From Fundidesulfovibrio agrisoli (GTDB taxonomy: Bacteria > Desulfobacterota > Desulfovibrionia > Desulfovibrionales > Desulfovibrionaceae): a stretch of 42,690 nt of DNA. The notes beneath the pieces were generated by a model. It was not told the DNA's origin. It searched no databases and was given only the letters and a program-made list of their open reading frames with translations. Shown one piece after another: positions 25,853-36,620 of this stretch. Numbering within the stretch: the first letter of the stretch is position 1; the number at the start of each line of letters is the position of its first letter. The stretch lies in contig NZ_JAKZKX010000031.1 of the NCBI RefSeq assembly GCF_022808715.1, positions 1-42,690 on the forward strand. The letters are read 5' to 3'. Position numbers and translations under genes: made by a program.

Positions 25853-25976
25853 CAGCCCGCCCTGAAATCGCCGCTGGCTGCGCCGCTTCAAAAAGGTCAA
25901 ACCCTCGCGTATGCCGAATACGCTCCGGCCTTGACTTTTTCTTGCCCCTCGCCGGCGGGTTTTTTGAACAGGCCGC
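25850..25976. repeat. MITE-like foldable repeat, copy 1
   Basis: A 127-base element beginning at the TAG stop of the aldo/keto reductase. It aligns without gaps to 33777-33904. An inner stem pairs about 25890-25900 with 25931-25941, and the right end reads TTTTTTGAACAGGC. The left outer arm has diverged from copy 2. The structure could also end transcription of the reductase gene in either direction. No transposase is present, so it would be a non-autonomous element. Confidence 0.75.
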
Positions 25977-26077: not shown

Positions 26078-27442
26078 ATGAAGATACTGTATTACGACTG
26101 TTTCGCCGGAATCAGCGGGGACATGAACCTGGCCGCCATGATCGGCCTGGGCGTGGACCCGGATTACCTGCGGGGCGAGCTCTCCAGGCTGGGGCTGGAT
26201 CACGAGTTCGAGCTGGTTGTCTCCAAGGGTGCGCGCAGCGGCATCCACGGCGTCCGGGTGGACGTGGCCCTCAAGAACCAGGGCGGGCACGAGCATCACC
26301 ATGAGCACGGGCACGGCGAAGAATCCGGGCATGGGCGCGACCATCCCCATGAGCACGGGGGGCACGCGCACCATCACGGCCATTCGCACGAGCACGGCCA
26401 CAGCCATGCCCACGAGCACGAACATGGGCACGGGCACGAGCACGGCCACGACCACCATCACCATCACCACCATCACGCCCACAACCGCAACCTGGCGGAC
26501 ATCGAGGCCATCATCACGGGCAGCGGCCTCTCCGAGGCGGTGAAGCGCACCAGCCTGGCCATCTTCCGCAAGGTGGCAGAGGCCGAGGCCAAGGTCCACG
26601 GCAAGCCCATCGCCGAGGTGCACTTCCACGAGGTCGGGGCCACGGACTCCATCGTGGACATCGTGGGCGCGGCCGTCTGCCTGCACAGCCTGGGCGTGGA
26701 CGCGGTGTGGTCCTCCCCGGTGGAGCTGGGCGGCGGCTTCGTGCGCTGCGCCCACGGGCTGATCCCCGTTCCGGCCCCGGCCACGGCGGAGATCCTCCAG
26801 GGCGCGCCCACCACGCGCGGTGCCGCCCGGCACGAGGCCACCACCCCCACGGGCGCGGCCATCGTCGCCGCGCTGGCGGACGAATTCACCGCCACGCCAG
26901 CGCTCGTCGTGGAGAAGACGGCCTACGGCATCGGCCACCGCGAGGCGGAGATCCCCAACGTGCTGCGCGTGCAGCTGGCCCGCGCCGAGGCCCCGCAAAA
27001 GGCGGGCCGCGTCCAGGAGGCGCGCCTGCTGCAATGCAACATCGACGACATGACCGGCGAGGCTCTGGGCGTGGCCATGGACCTGCTCATGGAGGCCGGG
27101 GCCATGGACGTGCACTTCACGCCCATCCAGATGAAGAAGAACCGGCCCGCCACCTGCGTCTCCCTGCTGTGCTCCGCCAAGGACGAGGAACGCTTCAAGG
27201 AGCTGCTCTTCCGCCACACCACCACCCTGGGGGTGAAGAGCTTCCCGCTGGAAAAGACCGTGTTGGACGTCGGCTTCGAGCGCCTGGAGACTCCGCTGGG
27301 GCCGGTGACCATCAAGAACGCCCTGCGGGATGGCAAAGTGCTGCGCTCCAAGCCCGAACTGGAGGACTGCCGGGAGCTGGCCCGCCGCCACGGCCTGACC
27401 CTGGGCGAGGTCTACGCGGCCATCGCCGGGTGCCGGAAATGA
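26078..27442 (+). CDS. larC: LarC, nickel insertion into the pincer nucleotide
   Basis: A 454-residue LarC, encoded as one continuous frame rather than the frameshifted larC1/larC2 pair of some bacteria. The start MKILYYDCFAGISGDM, the EVHFHEVGATDSIVDIVG motif and the CNIDDMTGEALG region are family hallmarks. Residues 71-135 are a His-rich insert with 35 His, including eight in a row (126-133), suited to nickel storage. LarC is a CTP-dependent cyclometallase that places Ni in the cofactor made by LarB and LarE. AGGAAA precedes the ATG. It overlaps larE by four bases. This is the first gene of a three-gene operon ended by a terminator at 29144. Confidence 0.96.
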   Translation: MKILYYDCFAGISGDMNLAAMIGLGVDPDYLRGELSRLGLDHEFELVVSKGARSGIHGVRVDVALKNQGGHEHHHEHGHGEESGHGRDHPHEHGGHAHHHGHSHEHGHSHAHEHEHGHGHEHGHDHHHHHHHHAHNRNLADIEAIITGSGLSEAVKRTSLAIFRKVAEAEAKVHGKPIAEVHFHEVGATDSIVDIVGAAVCLHSLGVDAVWSSPVELGGGFVRCAHGLIPVPAPATAEILQGAPTTRGAARHEATTPTGAAIVAALADEFTATPALVVEKTAYGIGHREAEIPNVLRVQLARAEAPQKAGRVQEARLLQCNIDDMTGEALGVAMDLLMEAGAMDVHFTPIQMKKNRPATCVSLLCSAKDEERFKELLFRHTTTLGVKSFPLEKTVLDVGFERLETPLGPVTIKNALRDGKVLRSKPELEDCRELARRHGLTLGEVYAAIAGCRK

Positions 27443-28266
27443 GCGGGGAGGCAATGACGCACGCCATCCCGAAAGAGGAGAAGCTCCGCAACCTGCTCCG
27501 CTCCCTTGGGGGCATGGGCAAGGCGCTGGTGGCCTTCTCCGGCGGGCTGGACAGCACCTTCCTGCTGCACGCCGCCCGGGAGGCGCTGGGCGACGGCGCG
27601 CTGGCCGCGACCATCGTCACGGCCTACATGCCCGAGGCCGAACGCGAGGACGCAATACGGGCGGCCAAGGAAATGGGCGCGCGCCACCTGCTGCTGGAGG
27701 TTCCCTTCCCGGAAATCCTGCGCCACAACCCGCCGGAGCGCTGCTACCTCTGCAAGCGCACCCTTTTCGGCCTGCTCCGGGAGGCGGCCGCCGCCGAGGG
27801 CGTCGCCCACGTGCTGGACGGCACCAACCTGGACGACCTGGACGACTACCGCCCGGGCATGAAGGCCCTGGGGGAGCTTGGCATCGAAAGCCCGCTGCTG
27901 GCCGAGGGCCTGACCAAGCGCGACATCCGCGAGCTCTCGCGCGAACGGGGCCTGCCCGCGTGGGACAAGCCCGCCGGGGCCTGCCTGCTTTCGCGCATCC
28001 CCCACGGTGTCGTGGTGGAGGACGCGGAGCTCAAGCGCATCGACCAGGCCGAATCTTTTCTGAAGGAAATCGGCTTCGCGGCCGTGCGCCTGCGCAGCCA
28101 CGGGGACCTGGCCCGCATCGAGGTGCCGCGTGAGCTGGTGGGCGAGTTGGTGGAGGCCGACAGGCGCCACGGCATCGACGCCCGGCTCAAGACCCTGGGC
28201 TACCGCCACGTGGCCGTGGACCTGGGCGGCTACCGCATGGGCAGCCTCAACGAACAAACGCCGTAG
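27439..28266 (+). CDS. larE: LarE, sulfur transferase for the nickel-pincer cofactor
   Basis: A 275-residue PP-loop ATPase with SGGLDS (34-39). LarE adenylates and then sulfurates the carboxylates of the LarB product. Three Cys are placed as in the iron-sulfur type of LarE: CYLC (102, 105) and the Cys in AGACLLSR (182). In the sacrificial type a single Cys gives up its sulfur; in the three-Cys type a [4Fe-4S] cluster carries an extra sulfide. The pattern therefore predicts a catalytic enzyme. The ATG at 27439 overlaps the larC stop (ATGA). An ATG at 27454 is possible, but GGGGAGG lies only two bases from it. Confidence 0.93.
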   Translation: MSGEAMTHAIPKEEKLRNLLRSLGGMGKALVAFSGGLDSTFLLHAAREALGDGALAATIVTAYMPEAEREDAIRAAKEMGARHLLLEVPFPEILRHNPPERCYLCKRTLFGLLREAAAAEGVAHVLDGTNLDDLDDYRPGMKALGELGIESPLLAEGLTKRDIRELSRERGLPAWDKPAGACLLSRIPHGVVVEDAELKRIDQAESFLKEIGFAAVRLRSHGDLARIEVPRELVGELVEADRRHGIDARLKTLGYRHVAVDLGGYRMGSLNEQTP

Positions 28267-28284
28267 GCTGGAAATACATCGCAC

Positions 28285-29040
28285 ATGGACAAGCACGAGA
28301 ATCTGAGGAAGCTGCTGGCCGGCATCAAGGACGGCAGCCTGGACGTGGAGCAGGGCCTGGAGCGCCTGCGCGACCTGCCCTTCCTGGACATGGGCCACAC
28401 CAAGATCGACCTGCACCGCGCCCTGCGCAACGGCTTCCCCGAGGTGATCTACGGCGAGGGCAAGACCCCGCAGCAGGTGGGCGAAATATTCAAGCGCATG
28501 GGCGAGCACGCCAACGTGCTGGCCACGCGGGTTTCGCCTGAAATGGCGGAGCACGTGCGCTCCGTCTGCCCCGAGGTTCGCTACAACCCCCTGGGCCGGA
28601 CCCTGACTTTGGTGCGGGGCGAGATCCATTACAAGGAAGGCGAGGTGGCCATCGTCACCGCCGGCACCTCGGACCTGCCCGTGGCCGAAGAGGCCAGGGA
28701 GACCTGCGAGATGCTCGGCAGCCACGCCACCGTGATCTCGGACGTGGGCGTGGCGGGCATCCACCGCCTGCTGGACCGCCTGGGGCACATCCGCAAGGCC
28801 CGGGTCATCATCGTGGTTGCGGGCATGGAGGGGGCCCTGGCCAGCGTGGTGGGCGGGCTGGTGCAGCAGCCCATCGTGGCGGTGCCGACCTCCGTGGGTT
28901 ACGGCGCGGCCCTGGGCGGGCTCTCGGCGCTCCTCGGCATGCTCACCTCCTGCGCCAGCGGCGTGACCGTGGTGAACATCGACAACGGCTTCGGCGCGGC
29001 CTGCGCGGCCTGCAAGATCAACAACCTCTTCCCGGCCTGA
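28285..29040 (+). CDS. larB: LarB, nicotinate mononucleotide carboxylase/hydrolase
   Basis: A 251-residue protein related to the PurE class of AIR carboxylases in its C-terminal half (VTAGTSDLPVAEEA, then GMEGALASVVGGL and VPTSVGYG). LarB carboxylates nicotinic acid adenine dinucleotide and releases AMP, the first step to the nickel-pincer cofactor. The start lies 18 bases after the larE stop with only a weak purine stretch (TGGAA), suggesting coupling to larE. With larC and larE the biosynthetic set is complete, but no LarA-type racemase or other user is encoded nearby. Confidence 0.95.
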   Translation: MDKHENLRKLLAGIKDGSLDVEQGLERLRDLPFLDMGHTKIDLHRALRNGFPEVIYGEGKTPQQVGEIFKRMGEHANVLATRVSPEMAEHVRSVCPEVRYNPLGRTLTLVRGEIHYKEGEVAIVTAGTSDLPVAEEARETCEMLGSHATVISDVGVAGIHRLLDRLGHIRKARVIIVVAGMEGALASVVGGLVQQPIVAVPTSVGYGAALGGLSALLGMLTSCASGVTVVNIDNGFGAACAACKINNLFPA

Positions 29041-29360: not shown

Positions 29361-29714
29361 ATGAAGCCTTTTCTTCGCCTCATGAAGGCCCTGTCCGACG
29401 CCAACCGGGTCAAGATCGTCAAGATGCTCAAGCGCAGGCCCATGTGCGTCTGCGAGCTGCAGACGGCGCTCGGCGTGGCGCAGCCCACGGTCTCCAACCA
29501 CCTCAAGGTGCTTGAGGACGCCGGGCTGGTCGAGAGCGCCAAGGCGGGCCAGTGGGTGAACTATTCGCTGGCCGAAGGGGAGAGCGCCTACGCGCGCGCG
29601 CTCCTTCAGCACCTGGAGACCTGGCTGGAGGACGACCCCGAGATCGCCCGGCTGCTGTCCGGGCTGGACGACATCCGGCGCGAGAACATCTGCTCCGTGA
29701 AGCCCGCCAAATAG
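29361..29714 (+). CDS. arsR: ArsR-family metalloregulatory repressor
   Basis: A 117-residue winged-helix repressor. The metal site motif MCVCEL (Cys29, Cys31) matches the ELCVCDL site of As(III)/Sb(III)-sensing ArsR. The recognition helix region is GVAQPTVSNHLKVLEDAGLV. Binding of arsenite should release it from the operator. The ATG at 29361 follows TGGAGA by seven bases and lies just after the predicted transcription start; an in-frame ATG at 29292 lies upstream of the promoter and is rejected. First gene of a long plus-strand operon (next start 22 bases on). Confidence 0.93.
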   Translation: MKPFLRLMKALSDANRVKIVKMLKRRPMCVCELQTALGVAQPTVSNHLKVLEDAGLVESAKAGQWVNYSLAEGESAYARALLQHLETWLEDDPEIARLLSGLDDIRRENICSVKPAK

Positions 29715-29736
29715 GCGGCAAGGCGGGGAGGAACAC

Positions 29737-30864
29737 ATGAACGACCTGAGGGAACTTCGCATCGATTCCATGGGAGGCGGCATGCCCGGCCCTGGAGCGA
29801 CACCGGCGCCGCCCGCGCCCGACAAAGGGGCCGGAGAGGCCGGACAGGCCGGTATGGCGCGAATCCTGGCCCTGGGCATCGCGGCGCTGGCCCTGTGGAT
29901 CGCCGTGTACACGCACCTGGAGGCCTGGGCCGACGCCGCGACCTACGGCCTGCTCGGGCTGGAGAGGGGCTCGGCCTTCGCCGCGGCCCTGGCCTTCTTC
30001 CTGTACGACGGCCCCAAGGTGCTGCTCCTTTTGACCCTGGTGGTGTTCGGCGTCGGGATCATCCGCTCCTTCTTCACGGCGGCCCGCGCCCGCAGGCTGC
30101 TGGCCGGGCGCGGCGAGGCCGTGGGCAATGTCCTGGCGGCCCTGCTGGGCATCGTCACGCCCTTCTGCTCCTGTTCGGCCGTGCCGCTCTTCGTGGGCTT
30201 CGTCACGGCGGGGGTGCCCCTGGGCGTCACCTTCTCCTTCCTGGTGAGCGCTCCCATGGTCAACGAGGTGGCCCTTGTGCTGCTCTACGGGCTCATGGGC
30301 TGGAAGGTGGCCGGGCTGTACCTGCTCACGGGCCTGCTGGTGGCCATGGTCAGCGGCTGGGTCATCGGCAGGCTGAAGATGGAGGGCCACCTGGAGGAGT
30401 GGGTGCGCCTGATCCACGCCGGGCAGGACCAGCCCGAGGTAGAGCCGGGCTGGCCGGGACGGGTGCGCGCGGGGCTCGAAGCGGTCAGGGACATCGTGGG
30501 CCGGACCTGGCCCTGGGTGCTGGCGGGCATCGCCGTGGGCGCGGGCATCCACGGCTACGTGCCCGAGGGGTTCATGGCCTCCATCATGGGCCGCGACGCC
30601 TGGTGGTCGGTGCTCGCGGCCGTGGCCCTCGGCGTCCCCATGTATTCCAACGCCGCCGGTATCATACCCGTGGTGCACGCGCTCCTGGAGAAGGGGGCGG
30701 CCCTGGGCACGGTGCTGGCCTTCATGATGAGCGTCATCGCCCTTTCCCTGCCGGAGACGATCATCCTGCGGAAGGTGCTCAAGCCGCGCCTGCTCTTCAC
30801 CTTCGTGGGCGTCGTGTCTCTGGGCATCCTGCTGGTGGGCTACCTGTTCAACCTCATCCTGTAA
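29737..30864 (+). CDS. DUF318/ArsP-type permease
   Basis: A 375-residue membrane protein. A Pro/Gly-rich cytoplasmic tail (1-40) leads to about eight membrane segments. The hallmark TPFCSCSAVPLF (about 141-152) and a second half with VPMYSNAAGIIP identify the DUF318 permease family. Members export trivalent organoarsenicals (ArsP) or other soft metal ions, using Cys in this motif. CGGGGAGGA precedes the ATG. It lies between arsR and a tiny CXXC thioredoxin, an arrangement seen repeatedly in anaerobes. Whether it carries methylarsenite, arsenite-thiol adducts or another metal cannot be told. Confidence 0.87.
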   Translation: MNDLRELRIDSMGGGMPGPGATPAPPAPDKGAGEAGQAGMARILALGIAALALWIAVYTHLEAWADAATYGLLGLERGSAFAAALAFFLYDGPKVLLLLTLVVFGVGIIRSFFTAARARRLLAGRGEAVGNVLAALLGIVTPFCSCSAVPLFVGFVTAGVPLGVTFSFLVSAPMVNEVALVLLYGLMGWKVAGLYLLTGLLVAMVSGWVIGRLKMEGHLEEWVRLIHAGQDQPEVEPGWPGRVRAGLEAVRDIVGRTWPWVLAGIAVGAGIHGYVPEGFMASIMGRDAWWSVLAAVALGVPMYSNAAGIIPVVHALLEKGAALGTVLAFMMSVIALSLPETIILRKVLKPRLLFTFVGVVSLGILLVGYLFNLIL

Positions 30865-30879
30865 CGCGGGGAGGATTCC

Positions 30880-31113
30880 ATGGAGATCAAGGTGCTGGGG
30901 CCGGGCTGCCCCAAATGCCACGAGGCCGAGAAGCGCGTCCGGGAGGTCGTGGCCGAGCTTGGCGCGGACGCCACGGTGGCCAAGGTCTCTGACTTTCAGG
31001 AAATCGCACGGATGGGGGTGTTCTCGACCCCGGCCGTGGCCATCGACGGCGAGGTGAAGTGCGTCGGCAAGGTGCCGTCCAAGGCGGAGATCGCCGCCTG
31101 GATCAACGCATAA
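30880..31113 (+). CDS. Small thioredoxin-like disulfide protein
   Basis: A 77-residue thioredoxin-fold protein with GPGCPKC (Cys10, Cys13), a cis-Pro in FSTPAVAIDG and no signal peptide. It belongs to the 'redox-active disulfide protein 2' group, about the size of glutaredoxin. The ribosome binding site GGGGAGGA is strong and the gene starts 15 bases after the permease stop. It is likely a cytoplasmic thiol donor or metal handler for the permease or the neighbouring DGC protein. Confidence 0.88.
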   Translation: MEIKVLGPGCPKCHEAEKRVREVVAELGADATVAKVSDFQEIARMGVFSTPAVAIDGEVKCVGKVPSKAEIAAWINA

Positions 31114-31130
31114 GGATACTGGAGGCCGCA

Positions 31131-31523
31131 ATGAACGCTCCGTGCTGCTCGAAAGACCGTGAAGTCATGATCCTGGCCTGCTCCGGGGGCTCCAACGTGG
31201 GGCAGTTGACGAACCAGGCCGCCGTTGAGCTCACGCGCGAAGGCTTCGGGAAGATGTTCTGCCTGGCCGGAATCGGCGGGGGCCTGGGCGGGTTCGTCAA
31301 GTCCGCCAAGGAGACTCCCCGGGTCATGGTGCTCGACGGCTGCCAGGTCGGCTGCGCCAAGGCCATTCTGGAGCGCGAGGGGATACCGTTGCAACATCAC
31401 GTGATCGTAACCGACCTGGGCATAGAGAAAGTGAAGGACAGGCAGCTCGCCCTGAACCGTGAGGACGTGCTCACGGTCATGCGGGCCGGGAAGGCCTCCG
31501 TCGGCGAGGGGGCCGGGCTGTAA
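31131..31523 (+). CDS. DGC-domain putative zinc-binding protein (first copy)
   Basis: A 130-residue cytoplasmic protein of the DGC family (PF08859), named for its Asp-Gly-Cys motif, here in VLDGCQVGCAK. Other conserved Cys are in NAPCCS, ILACSGG and MFCLAGIGG. Family function is unsettled; metal binding is predicted from the Cys pattern. CTGGAGG lies before the ATG at 31131, and an earlier in-frame start is not needed. Its stop overlaps the next start as TAATG. A distant paralogue sits at 36063-36620. Confidence 0.85.
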   Translation: MNAPCCSKDREVMILACSGGSNVGQLTNQAAVELTREGFGKMFCLAGIGGGLGGFVKSAKETPRVMVLDGCQVGCAKAILEREGIPLQHHVIVTDLGIEKVKDRQLALNREDVLTVMRAGKASVGEGAGL

Positions 31524-31909
31524 TGGGCGGGGTGTTTCGCGCGGCGCTCGCCCTGGCGTTTGCGGCGTGCCTTGCCGCGCAGGGCCTTGCCGTACAGGCC
31601 ATGGCCGGACCCATCCCGGAGGTGCCCGCCAGGGGACAGGTGACCATGGTGGACCTGGGGGCCAAGGCCTGCATCCCATGCAAGATGATGATCCCGGTGA
31701 TGGACGCGCTGGAGAAGGACTACGCGGGCAAGGCGGCCATCGTCTTCATCGACGTCTGGGAGAACCCGGAGCAAAGCAAGGCCTTCGGGATCAGGGCCAT
31801 CCCCACGCAGATATTCTACGGCAAGGACGGCAAGGAGACGTACCGGCACGAGGGTTTCTTCGACAAGAAATCCATAACCGAAATCCTGGACAGGCTTTTG
31901 GCCCAGTAG
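31523..31909 (+). CDS. Exported thioredoxin-like protein
   Basis: A 128-residue thioredoxin-fold protein with a signal peptide (residues 1-28, AMA). The active site is KACIPCKMM (Cys50, Cys53), with cis-Pro in IRAIPTQIFY and a FIDVWENPE segment. Cleavage would place it in the periplasm, or anchored by its hydrophobic N-terminus. It is directly followed by a CcdA-like protein, the usual supplier of electrons to periplasmic thioredoxins. One base of overlap with the previous stop (TAATG) indicates translational coupling. Confidence 0.9.
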   Translation: MGGVFRAALALAFAACLAAQGLAVQAMAGPIPEVPARGQVTMVDLGAKACIPCKMMIPVMDALEKDYAGKAAIVFIDVWENPEQSKAFGIRAIPTQIFYGKDGKETYRHEGFFDKKSITEILDRLLAQ

Positions 31910-31919
31910 GGAACCCACG

Positions 31920-32627
31920 GTGCTCGACCAGCTCTTCCTGACGATCAACGCCTGGATGGTGGACAGCTTCGCCGTGGCCGCCGCGGGCTGCTTCCTCTGG
32001 GGCGTGGTGAGCGTGCTCTTCAGCCCGTGCCACCTGGCCTCCATCCCGCTCATCGTGGGCTACGTGGCGGGGCAGGGGCGGTTGATACGGGGCAGGGAGG
32101 CCGTCAAATACGCCCTGGCGTTCACCTCCGGGCTGTTCCTGACCATCGCCGTTGTCGGCGTGGCCTGCTCCCTGCTGGGGCGGATGCTCGGGGACATCGG
32201 CCCCTACTGGACCATCGCCGTGGGCGCGGCCCTGGTCTGGCTCGCCCTGGACATGCTCGGGGTGGCCAGGTGTTCCATGTCCGGGGGGCTGATGGGGCGC
32301 ATGAAGGTCAGGGGCGTGGGCGGGGCGTTCCTGCTGGGCCTCGCCTACGGGGTGCTTTCGGGCTCCTGCACGTTCGGCTTCATCGCCCCGATCCTGGCCA
32401 TCATCACCATCCAGCAGAAGGTGATGACGGGTGTGGCCCTGATCGTGCTGTTCGGCGTGGGGCACTGCGCGCCCATAGCGGCGGCGGGCAGCTCCACGGC
32501 CCTGGTGCGGCGCTGGCTGGAGAACAGGGCCGTGCGCCAGGGCGGGGACTGGTTCCGCAAGGGCGCGGGCGGCATGATCGCGTTGCTGGGCATCTATTTC
32601 ATCGCCAGGCCTTTTTTTGGGGCCTGA
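31920..32627 (+). CDS. CcdA/DsbD-type thiol electron transporter
   Basis: A 235-residue membrane protein with six hydrophobic segments. Each half has the conserved Cys of this family: SPCHLASIPLI (Cys37) and GSCTFGFIAPIL (about 149), which together form the disulfide that carries electrons across the membrane. It would move reducing equivalents from cytoplasmic thioredoxin to the exported thioredoxin encoded just upstream. GTG start at 31920, 10 bases after the previous stop, with AGGGA upstream. Its place inside an arsenic operon, not a cytochrome c operon, points to a role in keeping metalloid or thiol targets reduced. Confidence 0.9.
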   Translation: MLDQLFLTINAWMVDSFAVAAAGCFLWGVVSVLFSPCHLASIPLIVGYVAGQGRLIRGREAVKYALAFTSGLFLTIAVVGVACSLLGRMLGDIGPYWTIAVGAALVWLALDMLGVARCSMSGGLMGRMKVRGVGGAFLLGLAYGVLSGSCTFGFIAPILAIITIQQKVMTGVALIVLFGVGHCAPIAAAGSSTALVRRWLENRAVRQGGDWFRKGAGGMIALLGIYFIARPFFGA

Positions 32628-32687
32628 ACCCGGATATGCCGATTTGCAGGGCATCTTGAAAGCCAACGATAGGCCTGGAGGCCGCAC

Positions 32688-33779
32688 ATGACGGAAAGCA
32701 TCACGAAAAAACTCTCCTTTCTGGACCGCTACCTGACCCTGTGGATCTTCGCGGCCATGTTCGCGGGCGTGCTCATGGGCTGGGCCATGCCCGGCGTGCG
32801 CGGCGTGGTGGAGTTCTTCCAGGTGGGCACCACCAACATCCCCATCGCCATCGGGCTCATCCTGATGATGTATCCGCCCCTGGCCAAGGTGAAGTACGAG
32901 AAGCTGGGCCAGGTGTTCGGCAACGCGCGGGTGCTGGGGCTCTCCCTGGTGCAGAACTGGGTCATCGGGCCGGTGCTCATGTTCCTGCTGGCCATCGCCT
33001 TCCTCTCCGGCCATCACGAGTACATGGTGGGGCTCATCCTCATCGGGCTGGCCCGCTGCATCGCCATGGTCATCGTCTGGAACGACCTGGCCTCGGGCGA
33101 CCGCGAGTACTGCGCGGGGCTGGTGGCCTTCAACTCCATCTTCCAGGTGCTGTTCTTCTCGGTCTACGCGTGGCTGTTCATCACCTATCTGCCCGGCGTC
33201 CTGGGTTTGAAGGGCGTGGCGGTGGACATCTCCATGGGGCAGATCGCCCAGAGCGTGTTCATTTACCTGGGCATCCCCTTCCTGGCAGGCATGGCCTCGC
33301 GGTTCTTGGGCTTGAAGCTGAAAGGACAGCAGTGGTACGAGGAGGTCTTCCTGCCCAGGATCAGCCCCATCACGCTCACGGCGCTGCTCTTCACCATCCT
33401 GGTGATGTTCTCGCTCAAGGGCGAGTACATCGTGCGCCTGCCTTTCGACGTGGTGCGGGTGGCCATCCCCCTGTGCGTGTACTTCCTGGTCATGTTCGCG
33501 GCCTCGTTCTGGCTCTCCTGGAAGGCCGGGGCCACCTACGAGCAGTCGGCCACGCTCTCCTTCACGGCGGCCTCCAACAACTTCGAGCTGGCCATCGCCG
33601 TGGCCGTGGCCGTGTTCGGCATCGACTCCGGCCAGGCCTTCGCCGCGGTGATCGGGCCCCTGGTGGAGGTGCCCGTGCTCATCGCCCTGGTGAACGTGGC
33701 CCTGTGGATCAGGCGCAGGTGGTTCCCCCACGCGGTCGAGACGCCGCTGGGCGTGTGCCACGTCTCCTGCAAACCCTAG
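32688..33779 (+). CDS. acr3: ACR3-family arsenite efflux pump
   Basis: A 363-residue transporter with ten predicted membrane segments. [15 protein letters not shown] (Cys near 124) holds the Cys essential for arsenite transport in ACR3 proteins; [18 protein letters not shown] is also conserved. It exports As(III) using the proton gradient. CTGGAGG precedes the ATG. It begins 60 bases after the CcdA-like gene and its TAG stop is the first triplet of a repeat element, which separates it from arsC. Confidence 0.95.
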
Positions 33780-33904
33780 CAGCCTGTTGAAAAATCCCCG
33801 CTGGCGGCGTCGCTTCGAAAAAGCCGAACCCTCGCGCAGGATAACTACGCATCGGGCTCGGCTTTTTCTCGCGCCTTGCCGGCAGGTATTTTGAACAGGC
33901 TACA
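33777..33904. repeat. MITE-like foldable repeat, copy 2
   Basis: A 128-base element between acr3 and arsC, matching 25850-25976 without gaps. Outer arms AGCCTGTTGAAAA and TTTTGAACAGGCT form near-perfect terminal inverted repeats, and an inner 11-bp perfect stem pairs 33817-33827 with 33858-33868. The whole folds as one long hairpin. It starts exactly at the acr3 stop codon. It may block read-through into arsC; a TACAAT at its right boundary (33901-33906) might serve as a -10 element. Confidence 0.8.
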
Positions 33905-33941
33905 ATAAACGATTTTCTCAACGGACTGTTAGAGGTGCGTC

Positions 33942-34376
33942 ATGCCTTCCAAGACGAAGATACTGTTCCTGTGCACGGGCAACTCCTGCCGCAGCCAGAT
34001 GGCGGAAGGTTTCGCCCGGGCGTTGCGCTCCGGCGACATGGAGGCCTGGTCGGCGGGGGTGGTCCGGCACGGGATGAACCCGCTGGCCGTGAAGGCCATG
34101 GCCGAGGCCGGGGTGGACATCTCCGGCCAGAGCTCCAAGACCGTGGATGACCTGCCCAGGAAAGAGTTCGACTGGATCGTCACCCTCTGCGGCCACGCCA
34201 ACGAGAACTGCCCCTACTTCCCAGGCAAGGCGAGGCGCATCCACGCGGGCTTCGACGACCCCCCGGCCCTGGCCAAGGACGCCGCCAGCGAAGAGGAAGC
34301 CCTGGCCCACTACCGGCGGGTGCGCGACGAGATCAAGGCCTTCGTGGAAGGCTTCGACGTGAACGCCGCAAGCTAG
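33942..34376 (+). CDS. arsC: Arsenate reductase, thioredoxin-coupled (LMW phosphatase fold)
   Basis: A 144-residue ArsC of the low-molecular-weight tyrosine phosphatase type. The catalytic loop CTGNSCR (Cys11 to Arg17), the redox Cys pair in TLCGHANENC (Cys83, Cys90) and the general-acid Asp region HAGFDDPP are all present, as in the S. aureus-type enzyme that is recycled by thioredoxin. It reduces As(V) to As(III) for ACR3. AGAGG precedes the ATG. The stop TAG shares bases with the stop of the convergent LysR gene (CTAG at 34373-34376). Confidence 0.96.
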   Translation: MPSKTKILFLCTGNSCRSQMAEGFARALRSGDMEAWSAGVVRHGMNPLAVKAMAEAGVDISGQSSKTVDDLPRKEFDWIVTLCGHANENCPYFPGKARRIHAGFDDPPALAKDAASEEEALAHYRRVRDEIKAFVEGFDVNAAS

Positions 34377-35422
34377 CAGCAGCGCCCCCCCGCTCCAGCT
34401 CCAGACCCAGGCCCAGACCCAGGCCCAGACCCAGGCCCAGACCCAGGCCCAGACCCAGGCCCCGGTTCATGGTCAGGGGGGGCGAAAAGGTTCTCCAGAA
34501 TGGTGCGCGTCCCGCCCATGGTATGAGCCTTGGCCCCCTCCATGAGCCTGGCGCGCACCATGTCCATGAACGCGGCCAAAGGCGGGGAGAGCCATTTGTC
34601 CTTGTGGCGCACCATGAGCACGGCCGTCTCCATCTCCCCCTCGGCCCAGTCCAGCACGGCCAGCCGCCCGGAGGCCACGTCGCCGCGCACGGCCAGCTCC
34701 GGCAGGATGCTCACGCCCACCCCGTCCATCACGCAGCCGCGCAGTGCCGCGGCGCTGGAGAAGGCCACCCCGGCCGCAGTCTCCACCCCCCTGCCTGATA
34801 GCAGGCCCTCGAACATCTTGCGGTAGGAGCAGTCCGCCGTGGAGAGCACCAGGGTCTCGCCCTTGAGGTCGTCCGGCCCGATTGGCCCGCGCCCCGCGAG
34901 CCGGTGACCGGGCGCGGCCACCAGCACCAGGCGCTCGATCCCCAGCAATTCCACCACCAGGTCGCCCCCGCGCACCGAATCCGCCATGAGAAAGGCCAGG
35001 TCCGTCACGCCCTGGCGCAGGTCCTTCTCCAGGCCCTCCAGGGTGCAGGCCGTGAAGCTCAGGCGCACGTTGGGGAAGCGCTCCCTGAACGGCCGGATCA
35101 CCCCGCCCATCCTGTACGCGCACAGTGATTCGGGCACCCGCACCGTGAGGGCGCCCCGGGCCTCGGCCTCGCCGGAGACCCAGGCCCGGGCCTCGTCCTC
35201 CAGGTCGAGGATCTTGCGTGCGTAGTCCAGCAGGCGCTCGCCAGCCTCGGTCAGGGCCACGCGCCTGCCCAGGCGCTCGAACAGCTTGACCCCCAGGTCG
35301 GCCTCGATGGCCGCGATGCGCGCCGAAACCGTCGATTGCGCGGCGTGCAGGGCCTCGCCCGCGCGGTTGAAGCTGAGCAGCCCGGCCACGGTCATGAATG
35401 TTCTCAAATCACGAAGTTCCAT
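34373..35422 (-). CDS. LysR-family regulator with GPGS-repeat tail
   Basis: A 349-residue LysR protein. The N-terminal helix-turn-helix (about 1-60, AGEALHAAQSTVSARIAAIE) and the effector domain (about 90-300) are standard. The last ~30 residues are unusual: five exact repeats of a 12-base unit encode a Gly-Pro-Gly-Ser tail, then GAGAGGRCC. The normal family length is about 300. The ATG at 35422 (MELRDLRTF) is chosen as the usual LysR start; an ATG at 35464 would run through the likely operator. It is divergent from the C_GCAxxG_C_C gene, its probable target. The last bases overlap the end of arsC. Confidence 0.88.
   Translation of the reverse strand: MELRDLRTFMTVAGLLSFNRAGEALHAAQSTVSARIAAIEADLGVKLFERLGRRVALTEAGERLLDYARKILDLEDEARAWVSGEAEARGALTVRVPESLCAYRMGGVIRPFRERFPNVRLSFTACTLEGLEKDLRQGVTDLAFLMADSVRGGDLVVELLGIERLVLVAAPGHRLAGRGPIGPDDLKGETLVLSTADCSYRKMFEGLLSGRGVETAAGVAFSSAAALRGCVMDGVGVSILPELAVRGDVASGRLAVLDWAEGEMETAVLMVRHKDKWLSPPLAAFMDMVRARLMEGAKAHTMGGTRTILENLFAPPDHEPGPGSGPGSGPGSGPGSGPGSGAGAGGRCC
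34401..34460. repeat. Five perfect 12-bp tandem repeats
   Basis: The unit CCAGACCCAGGC occurs five times without change at 34401, 34413, 34425, 34437 and 34449. It lies in the 3' end of the LysR gene, where each unit encodes four residues (Pro-Gly-Ser-Gly). Copy number changes would keep the frame. Confidence 0.95.
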
Positions 35423-35449
35423 GTCAGCCCCGCATTGTTCGGTGTCTCC

Positions 35450-35517
35450 GATCAACCAGATCAAATATAATCGTTAGAATTGATCGTTGATAGCTTGTAA
35501 ACAGCTATTCAGATCAA
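35450..35517. promoter_or_regulatory. Probable LysR operator region
   Basis: GATCAA occurs at 35450, 35459 and 35512, and the reverse complement TTGATC at 35480 with TTGAT at 35487. The first two and the inverted pair form a broken palindrome across the LysR/C_GCAxxG_C_C intergenic region. This is typical of LysR sites controlling a divergent pair. Confidence 0.55.
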
Positions 35518-35569
35518 ACGGCGTTGTCAACCGGCCAGCATCCCGGCCGGAAACACAAGGAGAACGGAG

Positions 35570-36028
35570 ATGAACAAGAATCAGGTGGAGCAAAGGACAT
35601 ACGAGCTGTTCCAGGGCGGATTCCACTGTGCGGAATCTGTGCTGGCGGCGGTGCTCGAAGCCTCCGGTGCGGAAGAGGGCGGCATCCCGCTCAAGGCCGC
35701 GACGGGGTTCGGCGGCGGCATGGGCCGCTGCAAGGAGGAGACCTGCGGGGCCATCACGGGCGGCATCCTGGCGCTGGGCCTGCTGCAGGGGCGCACCAGC
35801 CCAGCCCAGTGCTGGGACGGCATCGCCTCCAGGGCCGCCGAATTCCGCGAGAAGGTGCGCGCCATCACCGGGCACACCAAATGCCGGGAGGTGCTCGAAG
35901 CCCTCGGCCCCCAGGAGAACATGGAGAAGTGCAAGCGCCTGACGGCCAGCTCGGCGGGCATCCTGCACGAATTGCTGGAAAAGCCCGCCGCCTGCGCCCC
36001 GGCTGCCGCCTGCGGCTGCCGCCGATAA
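35570..36028 (+). CDS. C_GCAxxG_C_C family redox protein
   Basis: A 152-residue cytoplasmic protein of the family PF09719. The motif Cys in GGFHCAES (Cys20) and the block MGRCKEETCGAITGGILALGL (Cys54, Cys59) are conserved; later Cys are at the C-terminus (AACAPAAACGCRR). Members are thought to bind a metal or iron-sulfur group, but the reaction is unknown. CAAGGAGA precedes the ATG. It is first of a two-gene unit with the second DGC protein (35 bases apart) and is divergent from the LysR gene. Confidence 0.88.
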   Translation: MNKNQVEQRTYELFQGGFHCAESVLAAVLEASGAEEGGIPLKAATGFGGGMGRCKEETCGAITGGILALGLLQGRTSPAQCWDGIASRAAEFREKVRAITGHTKCREVLEALGPQENMEKCKRLTASSAGILHELLEKPAACAPAAACGCRR

Positions 36029-36062
36029 CCGCCCGGAAAACCGGAACACGGAGGAATACGCC

Positions 36063-36620
36063 ATGAGTTGCGAAAAGAACGCCGCCGTCGATTGCGCGCC
36101 CGATAACGGGGGCCAGTTCGAAACCGTCAGCATCCGCAAGCCCACCGGGGTGTGCCAGCTCTGCGAGGATTTTTCGCAGAGGCAGTCCATCAAGCCCGTG
36201 GCCGTCATGTGCTGCGAAGGCTCGTGCCTGCGGGGCGAGATCGCGCGGCAGGCCTCGAACATTCTCTGCCATTCGCTCCTGCCGGAGAGGACCGTGCGCG
36301 TCTGCCTGGGCGGGGCCTTCACCAAGAACACGGGCCAGCGCGCCCTGGTGCGCAACGCCCCCCTGGTGGTAGCCATGGAGGGCTGCTTCCTCAAGTGCGC
36401 CACGCGCATGATGCAGGGCGTGCTGGAGGGGCTGGAGCCCGACGTGGTCATCGCGGACTCGCTCATCGAGTTCGACAGGGACCTCTTCAGCGTGGACGAG
36501 ATGCCCGAAGTCGAGATCATGGGCCACGCCCTCGACATCGCCGAGCAGATGGCCGCCAAGCTGGGCGGGCCGAGCCGCGCCGCCGCGCCCGCCGGGTCCG
36601 GCTGCGCCTGCTCGGGCTAG
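36063..36620 (+). CDS. DGC-domain putative zinc-binding protein (second copy)
   Basis: A 185-residue Cys-rich protein. It contains CCEGSCLRGEIARQASN, VCLGGAFTKNTGQ and MEGCFLKC, which match the DGC-family layout of the shorter protein at 31131-31523, with the DGC motif here reading EGC. It has an extra N-terminal ~45 residues with Cys (TGVCQLCEDF) and a C-terminal GCACSG. ACGGAGGA lies before the ATG. Metal or thiol chemistry is likely; the precise role is unknown. Confidence 0.82.
   Translation: MSCEKNAAVDCAPDNGGQFETVSIRKPTGVCQLCEDFSQRQSIKPVAVMCCEGSCLRGEIARQASNILCHSLLPERTVRVCLGGAFTKNTGQRALVRNAPLVVAMEGCFLKCATRMMQGVLEGLEPDVVIADSLIEFDRDLFSVDEMPEVEIMGHALDIAEQMAAKLGGPSRAAAPAGSGCACSG

Follow-up and report, generated by a model that had tools for sequence, protein, structure and literature searches.

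A conserved set of thiol genes is tied to an ArsP-type permease in the arsenic locus of Fundidesulfovibrio agrisoli and its phylum

Introduction

Why should an arsenic operon carry, between its repressor and its arsenate reductase, a string of small thiol proteins and a membrane electron carrier? The question is raised by a locus (positions 29361-36620) in a 42,690-nucleotide stretch of DNA from Fundidesulfovibrio agrisoli, a member of the Desulfobacterota (RefSeq assembly GCF_022808715.1, contig NZ_JAKZKX010000031.1, positions 1 to 42,690), which is referred to here as the window. On one strand, the genes encode in order ArsR, an ArsP_1/DUF318 permease (ArsP), an ArsE-family mini-thioredoxin, a protein of the DGC family (DGC1), an exported thioredoxin, CcdA, ACR3, and ArsC. 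Downstream of ArsC come a LysR regulator on the opposite strand, a C_GCAxxG_C_C gene, and a second DGC gene (DGC2). ArsP_1 permeases and ArsE-family mini-thioredoxins are widespread in the phylum, with matches in 307 (300 over cut-off) and 297 (269 over cut-off) of 395 sampled genomes, respectively, and the single published proposal that we found for the thiol genes points at the arsenate reductase. In the accessible portion of that paper, on which our statements about it are based, Castillo and Saier (2010) describe 8 instances in 7 organisms and propose a putative arsenate reductase system.

The principal finding of this study is that the thiol genes form a genuine and conserved set with a tie to the ArsP permease. 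It adds DGC to the published set as a member, describes a protein with an FeS domain as a frequent partner, and identifies ArsP as the protein to which the set is tied. These association data shift the question of what the thiol genes do to the permease, where it is open to direct genetic test.

Results

Recurrence of the thiol genes around DGC1

Gene neighborhoods were compared in four samples. Set A comprises 92 regions, namely the DGC places in 81 of the 395 phylum genomes, the window, and two regions from the genome to which it belongs. Set B holds the best 80 of 533 DGC1 relatives in a species-genome collection and is biased to close relatives. Set C consists of 40 mini-thioredoxin loci from DGC-free genomes, hand-picked from the best matches listed with most places at contig ends skipped, and set D of 40 ACR3 loci hand-picked among the matches listed, most of which have 5 kb or more on their left side. 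Set D omits many ACR3 loci of sets A to C and is therefore depleted in ArsP-linked loci, and three of its loci (L262, L278, and L295) overlap regions of the earlier sets. Genes were detected with profiles built from the window proteins and iterated on the sampled loci, with DGC1-like genes defined by a score of at least 95 bits. The labels for CDF, rhodanese, ArsM-like, and FeS-domain neighbors come from one Pfam-checked representative each, extended by homology, and several neighbor clusters that by eye resemble antisense frames of known genes were disregarded. Two loci with variant DGC genes (L135 and L202, described below) were omitted from the DGC alignment and from the set B count, which covers 79 genes in 78 of 80 loci.

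Deduplication of sets A and B left 124 loci, of which 70, including the window, have at least 4 kb on both sides; in these, genes were counted on the same strand within 7 kb. DGC1 is accompanied by the mini-thioredoxin in 59 of the 70 loci, by ArsR in 55, ArsP in 47, the thioredoxin in 45, and CcdA in 44, followed by ACR3 (34), the FeS-domain protein (30), ArsC (24), a CDF cation-efflux gene (23), rhodanese (18), and an ArsM-like methyltransferase (5). By arithmetic only, starting from 0 to 5 ArsP_1 matches per sampled genome of a few Mb, a random 14-kb stretch would contain an ArsP_1 gene about once in 100, as against 47 of these 70 loci. Taken separately, with a limit of 6 kb on the same strand, the 58 DGC1-like genes of set A have the mini-thioredoxin in 45 cases (directly upstream in 38), ArsP in 35, CcdA in 25, ACR3 in 24, ArsC in 21, and any of ArsP, ACR3, or ArsC in 44, while the corresponding numbers for the 79 genes of set B are 65 for the mini-thioredoxin (57 of them directly upstream), 51 for ArsP, 45 for CcdA, 32 for ACR3, and 25 for ArsC. 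Rather than being scattered and unlinked in most genomes, the outcome named as fatal by an earlier sequence-only reading of the window that had linked the thiol genes to a metalloid, these genes are mostly linked to arsenic or permease genes in the sampled loci. In the comparison with and without arsC and acr3 suggested by the same reading, 14 of the 70 loci (13 when both strands are counted) lack both ACR3 and ArsC yet keep ArsP, mini-thioredoxin, thioredoxin, and CcdA.

The FeS-domain protein (PF04060) was found in 60 loci across sets A and B, counted with duplicates, and recurs downstream of DGC, e.g., at L196:2523-3044; none was found in the window between 26001 and 40000, the stretch searched. 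In the DGC-free loci of set C, ArsP lies near the mini-thioredoxin in 37 of 40, CcdA in 26, ACR3 in 22, and ArsC in 10. Because most of these loci keep both proteins without DGC, ArsP and the mini-thioredoxin, often with the thioredoxin and CcdA, look like the core of the system in this phylum, and DGC is, as far as gene content goes, an add-on to that core in about a fifth of genomes.

CcdA follows ArsP

Which of the arsenic proteins goes with the electron carrier can be read from loci that have CcdA and loci that lack it, with p values that are only indicative because the loci share descent, also after clustering. Among the 70 DGC1 loci, ArsP is present in 41/44 with CcdA versus 6/26 without (p = 1.7e-9), the mini-thioredoxin in 44/44 versus 15/26, and ArsC in 17/44 versus 7/26 (p = 0.44). 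With both strands counted, the values are 42/45 versus 9/25 for ArsP, 19/45 versus 7/25 for ArsC, and 30/45 versus 6/25 for ACR3. Clustering the DGC proteins at 75% identity, which leaves 27 loci, gives 15/15 versus 1/12 for ArsP and 3/15 versus 1/12 for ArsC. In set D, ArsP is found in 9/14 loci with CcdA versus 5/26 without (p = 0.007), and in 14/16 loci with the mini-thioredoxin versus 0/24 without, while ArsC on the same strand is found in 3/14 versus 16/26 (p = 0.02); counting both strands (39 loci) yields 12/17 versus 4/22 for ArsP (p = 0.0025) and 5/17 versus 13/22 for ArsC (p = 0.11). In three set D loci (L263, L264, and L297), ArsP, mini-thioredoxin, CcdA, and thioredoxin lie opposite in strand to ArsR-ArsC-ACR3. 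Sets A, C, and D pooled yield 59 ACR3 loci whose flanks measure 4 kb or more on both sides; in these, ArsP accompanies CcdA in 26/32 versus 6/27 (p = 7e-6), and ArsC in 15/32 versus 15/27 (p = 0.6). CcdA is tied to ArsP in every comparison, and a tie to ArsC was not seen. The expectation from Castillo and Saier (2010) that the redox genes follow ArsC across genomes was not borne out in the sampled loci of this phylum, and the locus counts do not fit ArsC as their main client.

Gene identities and layout of the locus

Pfam and NCBIfam matches confirm every gene named by the sequence-only reading at the position it gave (Table 1). Its inventory of the genes between arsR and arsC was correct in what it listed and incomplete in omitting acr3, which lies there as well. 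With ArsR, ACR3, and arsenate reductase genes together, the locus is an ACR3/ArsC arsenic-resistance operon by gene content. The permease belongs to the ArsP_1 family by PF03773 score and C(S/T)C motif, the mini-thioredoxin to TIGR00412 by score and CxxC, CcdA to the DsbD_TM group by its domain score and two conserved membrane cysteines, and both DGC proteins to PF08859 by score, DGC1 also by its conserved DGC motif and cysteines. Furthermore, the mini-thioredoxin, in which a signal-like stretch is absent, matches the MTH895 structure 1ilo (E = 1.6e-15). The best model for ArsC is arsC_pI258_fam, at 151.5 bits under a cut-off of 174.3.

Table 1. Features of the locus in the F. agrisoli window.
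Feature	Position	Strand	Evidence and details
arsR, ArsR/SmtB repressor	29361..29714	+	PF01022 69.7 bits, NF033788 94.3 bits; Cys29-x-Cys31, Cys111
arsP-like permease (ArsP_1/DUF318)	29737..30864	+	PF03773 237.8 bits, cut-off 32.3; C144-S-C146, 'TPF' type
mini-thioredoxin, MTH895/ArsE family	30880..31113	+	PF13192; TIGR00412 105.2 bits, cut-off 62; C10-P-K-C13
DGC1	31131..31523	+	PF08859 118.9 bits, cut-off 27; Cys 17, 44, 71, 75 and Asp69
exported thioredoxin	31523..31909	+	PF00085 50.1 bits; C50-I-P-C53; N-terminal signal-like stretch judged by eye
CcdA-like membrane electron carrier	31920..32627	+	PF02683 DsbD_TM 53.1 bits, cut-off 27.1; C37, C150
acr3, arsenite exporter	32688..33779	+	TIGR00832 453.7 bits, cut-off 282.8
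127-base repeat element between acr3 and arsC	33780..33906		15-base inverted repeat inside
arsC, low-molecular-weight-phosphatase (LMWPc) type	33942..34376	+	PF01451 67.7 bits; Cys11, 16, 83, 90
LysR regulator	34373..35464	-	PF03466/PF00126; start codon uncertain
C_GCAxxG_C_C protein	35570..36028	+	PF09719 84 bits
DGC2, distant from DGC1	36063..36620	+	PF08859 52.7 bits, cut-off 27

The gaps in the first block measure, in order, 22, 15, 17, -1, 10, 60, and 162 bases, the last being mostly the 127-base repeat, which matches the genome at 35 places, this copy being one of them. A second copy of this repeat family lies in the window at 25865-25973. A scan for promoters and terminators found none, and it is therefore spacing and strand, and these only, that suggest a single transcript. 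The genome holds no DGC genes that we could find beyond DGC1 and DGC2. Since it has one further DsbD_TM place, the window CcdA looks dedicated.

Conserved cysteines and structure models

The sole cysteines of the permease, C144 and C146 of its CSC motif, are kept in 129 and 130 of 131 aligned proteins; C50 and C53 of the exported thioredoxin (CIPC) in 134 and 135 of 136; and C37 and C150 of CcdA in 119/119 and 105/119, respectively. In the mini-thioredoxin (CPKC), C10 is found in 208/216 and C13 in 216/216 aligned proteins. All of these alignments contain related and some duplicate loci. A Cys-x-Cys pair of the kind carried by the window ArsR senses arsenic. In DGC1, the four cysteines and the aspartate of Table 1, numbered in the alignment from the residue after Met, are each found in 57 or 58 of the 58 relatives, the window being one of these. 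Its AlphaFold2 model (pLDDT 88.5) has an alpha/beta fold, with C17, C44, and C71 just past strands 12-16, 41-43, and 64-69, and C75 opening helix 75-83. Because the model puts the cysteines at strand ends and at a helix start, it suggests a single site along one sheet edge to which all four contribute. Helices 127-140 and 145-157, predicted in the model of ArsP (pLDDT 81.2), flank the CSC motif. A Foldseek search of the DGC1 fold against the PDB returned no match at E 0.001 or better (best 0.075, with TM-scores of at most 0.47 among the best 50 matches listed), and its sequence gave chance-level matches only; the best match in the ArsP fold search was NaDC3 (E = 0.19). Neither fold search was used as evidence.

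The permeases are of two kinds. Measured against the window permease, 37 of 139 proteins (counted with duplicates) reach 250 bits or more and 102 stay below; TPF-CSC is found in at least 27 of the 37 and LAV-CSC in at least 88 of the 102. By motif, these kinds match clusters 2 and 1, respectively, of Yang et al. 2015 (PMC4435449), as defined in the accessible portion of that paper. Both accompany CcdA, mini-thioredoxin, and DGC in many loci.

A separate LysR unit

LysR, C_GCAxxG_C_C, and DGC2 look like a unit distinct from the ars block, because LysR orthologues adjoin a pair of DGC and C_GCAxxG_C_C genes without ars genes in six distinct loci: L161, L166 (same as L066), L167, L177, L178, and L200. 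The orthologues, with scores of 323 to 498 bits (the lowest-scoring one is truncated where its locus ends), are divergent to the pair, and none of the ars genes sought was found in these loci, two of which are only partly seen (L161 spans 6 kb, and the left flank of L200 measures 1 kb). The DGC protein beside these regulators is of the DGC1 kind, and its counterpart in the window is DGC2. A 12-base tandem repeat at 34401-34462 gives the window LysR protein a repeated Gly-Pro-Gly-Ser tail. The reducing relay across the membrane that the sequence-only reading had envisaged is compatible with the observed co-occurrence where it concerns cytosolic and exported parts tied to the permease; its extension to LysR, C_GCAxxG_C_C, and DGC2 is disfavored by the six loci.

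Discussion

A proposed thiol relay for ArsP

What might a permease gain from such partners? We propose a cytosol-to-periplasm thiol relay that serves the export by ArsP of a trivalent, thiol-bound arsenical. The linkage behind this proposal is observed, and the function assigned to it is a serious possibility that we rate a little short of probable. The block 29361-34376 would be one arsenic-responsive operon of two modules. ArsC and ACR3 would reduce arsenate and export arsenite in the known manner, and ArsP, the ArsE-like mini-thioredoxin, DGC, the exported thioredoxin, and CcdA would form the relay. On the cytosolic side, a trivalent arsenical with an affinity for thiols, most likely organic or thiolated, might be held or exchanged by the CPKC mini-thioredoxin and by DGC with its four cysteines, and then passed to the Cys-Ser-Cys pair of ArsP. 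CcdA would carry electrons from cytosolic thioredoxin to the exported CIPC thioredoxin, which would keep outward-facing thiols reduced so that the cargo is released and the cycle continues. We infer the regulation by arsenic, the direction of electron flow, the cargo, and all protein-protein contacts. In a bolder version, which strikes us as rather unlikely, DGC proteins would be thiol carriers of a new class that bind arsenicals, and ArsP would be a redox-assisted exporter whose Cys-Ser-Cys site is opened, and its cargo set free, by cytosolic electrons sent outward via CcdA and the exported thioredoxin. Metalloid efflux of this mode, if it exists, has no description in the accessible portions of the literature examined. 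DGC, a family for which our PDB searches found no solved structure, gains a genomic context from these data.

Several observations weigh against a relay for ArsP. Only 81 of the 395 genomes have DGC, leaving about four fifths without it. For 10 of 58 DGC1 genes in set A and 9 of 79 in set B, ArsP, ACR3, ArsC, and the mini-thioredoxin are all absent within 6 kb on either strand, some of these loci being short. DGC genes of organisms outside this phylum have different neighbors, NO-related genes being one example, and the accessible portion of PMC6650552 presents AnvM, a DGC family member, as a regulator. Furthermore, CcdA goes with ACR3 as well, in 28/44 loci with CcdA versus 6/26 without (p = 0.0013) and, after clustering, in 9/15 versus 1/12, which makes a tie to inorganic arsenic possible. 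An avoidance of ArsC by CcdA, suggested by set D, was dropped since it weakens when both strands are counted and no association is left in the pooled set. Finally, kinship among loci makes all p values too small, clustering included.

Other readings of the same genes must be set against these points. It is quite unlikely, in our estimate, that the thiol genes feed electrons to ArsC, as Castillo and Saier (2010) proposed. The window ArsC is nearest to the thioredoxin-coupled pI258 type and shares one block with the thiol genes, and arsC is present in 7/8 of the operons of Castillo and Saier, but CcdA does not follow ArsC in the 70, the clustered, or the pooled loci, and ArsC, being cytosolic, is not where one would first look for the target of electrons that travel outward, as these authors note themselves. 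A different thiophilic cargo for ArsP_1 and the thiol proteins, be it an element or a compound (antimony, copper, zinc, or mercury), with the arsenic genes as mere neighbors, we hold to be unlikely. Some ArsP_1 relatives are named in NCBIfam as Cu/Zn efflux (SO_0444 family) or SaoE efflux transporters, and CDF genes lie near 23 of the 70 loci. However, the window permease is a distant relative of these transporters and not a member of either family (122.1 bits against a cut-off of 325 for SaoE, and 99.4 against 300 for SO_0444), arsenic genes are common in the 70 loci (ACR3, ArsC, and ArsM-like methyltransferase, as counted above), and an ArsR with a Cys-x-Cys pair counts against a non-arsenic cargo.

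A stress kit for the general repair of arsenic-damaged protein thiols, working without direct contact with the permease, finds support in the general reduction of periplasmic thiols by DsbD/CcdA systems and in the oxidation-sensitive cysteine of AnvM (see below). We regard it as improbable, given that general repair has no need of so tight a tie to ArsP as the clustered loci display and that the genome has another DsbD_TM place. Very unlikely, finally, is a single system made of both blocks, with LysR, C_GCAxxG_C_C, and DGC2 included. The blocks adjoin and each holds a DGC protein, a C_GCAxxG_C_C gene lies near ars genes in L069 and L164, and the nearest DGC2 relative found (L083, 202 bits) adjoins ArsC, ACR3, and ArsR. 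By contrast, the LysR orthologues sit beside their DGC and C_GCAxxG_C_C genes without ars genes in the six loci above, the mini-thioredoxin is present in 3/10 DGC1 loci with a nearby C_GCAxxG_C_C gene versus 98/114 without one, and arsC and lysR are convergent.

Relation to known systems

The relay proposed for ArsP touches several known systems. The window shares with the set of Castillo and Saier (2010) the same three redox genes (CcdA, thioredoxin, and RADP2) in an ars operon. The accessible portion of their paper mentions neither DGC nor a partner with an FeS domain nor a link of these genes to ArsP, all of which come from the present analysis. The ArsP of Campylobacter jejuni (Yang et al. 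2015, PMC4435449) belongs, like the window permease, to PF03773 with a conserved C(S/T)C, and the window protein bears the 'tPF' mark of cluster 2; unlike here, no redox partners are described in the portion of that paper accessible to us, and the window permease is assigned from sequence. With a score over the cut-off of the ArsE/MTH895 family, the mini-thioredoxin recalls ArsEFG, which is reportedly a roxarsone system. DsbD/CcdA works with periplasmic thioredoxin-like partners (CcmG and ResA). A CcdA with an exported CxPC thioredoxin resembles this arrangement, whereas the window CcdA adjoins ArsP and has no adjacent cytochrome c genes.

AnvM of Pseudomonas aeruginosa is a DGC family member of similar length to DGC1, with 36% identity over residues 13-100 by tblastn. 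As described in the accessible portion of PMC6650552, it is a regulator downstream of narXL, unlike DGC1, which lies in an ars block. Its Cys44 (AnvM numbering) is the most oxidation-sensitive cysteine in that group's survey, and after inclusion bodies were dissolved the protein held no significant Zn, Cu, or Fe (same source). Zinc binding is predicted for DGC. In a literature search conducted mostly on titles and listings, no report of DGC in an ars operon was found, and the 'DGC' of a Leptospirillum paper is diguanylate cyclase, not the DGC family.

DGC variants and other loci

Among plasmids, 24 records have a DGC match. In the incomplete gene tables of the four that were examined (Shewanella, Klebsiella, Ideonella, and Halomicrobium), no ars gene is listed within 6 kb, and because of these four the ars link may hold for this DGC group and not for the family at large. 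Selenocysteine in DGC was considered and rejected. The DGC gene at L135:1768-2118, from a Desulfobacula metagenome assembly, has an in-frame stop directly past its DGC motif that is TAG, not TGA, and the one in-frame TGA that a pattern scan of the DGC stretch turned up (in L202) lies off the conserved cysteines and was read as sequence error or decay.

DGC also occurs in a different arsenic-linked context. L105:2514-10785 encodes ACR3, a GcvH-like protein, two tandem DGC proteins, OsmC-like and Lpd-like proteins, a radical SAM protein (lipoyl-synthase-like by eye), an LplA-like protein, and ArsC, a lipoyl-carrier unit that may be a lipoate-dithiol arsenic system. Strings of LipH-like and tandem DGC genes are seen in L098, L101, L102, L104, L106-L108, and L111 as well. 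In another ars island, at L055:12283-13935, a cation-efflux protein is fused to a MauE/DoxX-like domain after a rhodanese gene. Upstream of the locus in the window, 26078-29040 encodes a nickel-insertion protein, a PP-loop-like protein (weak matches), and an AIR-carboxylase-like protein, which look like the products of larC, larE, and larB.

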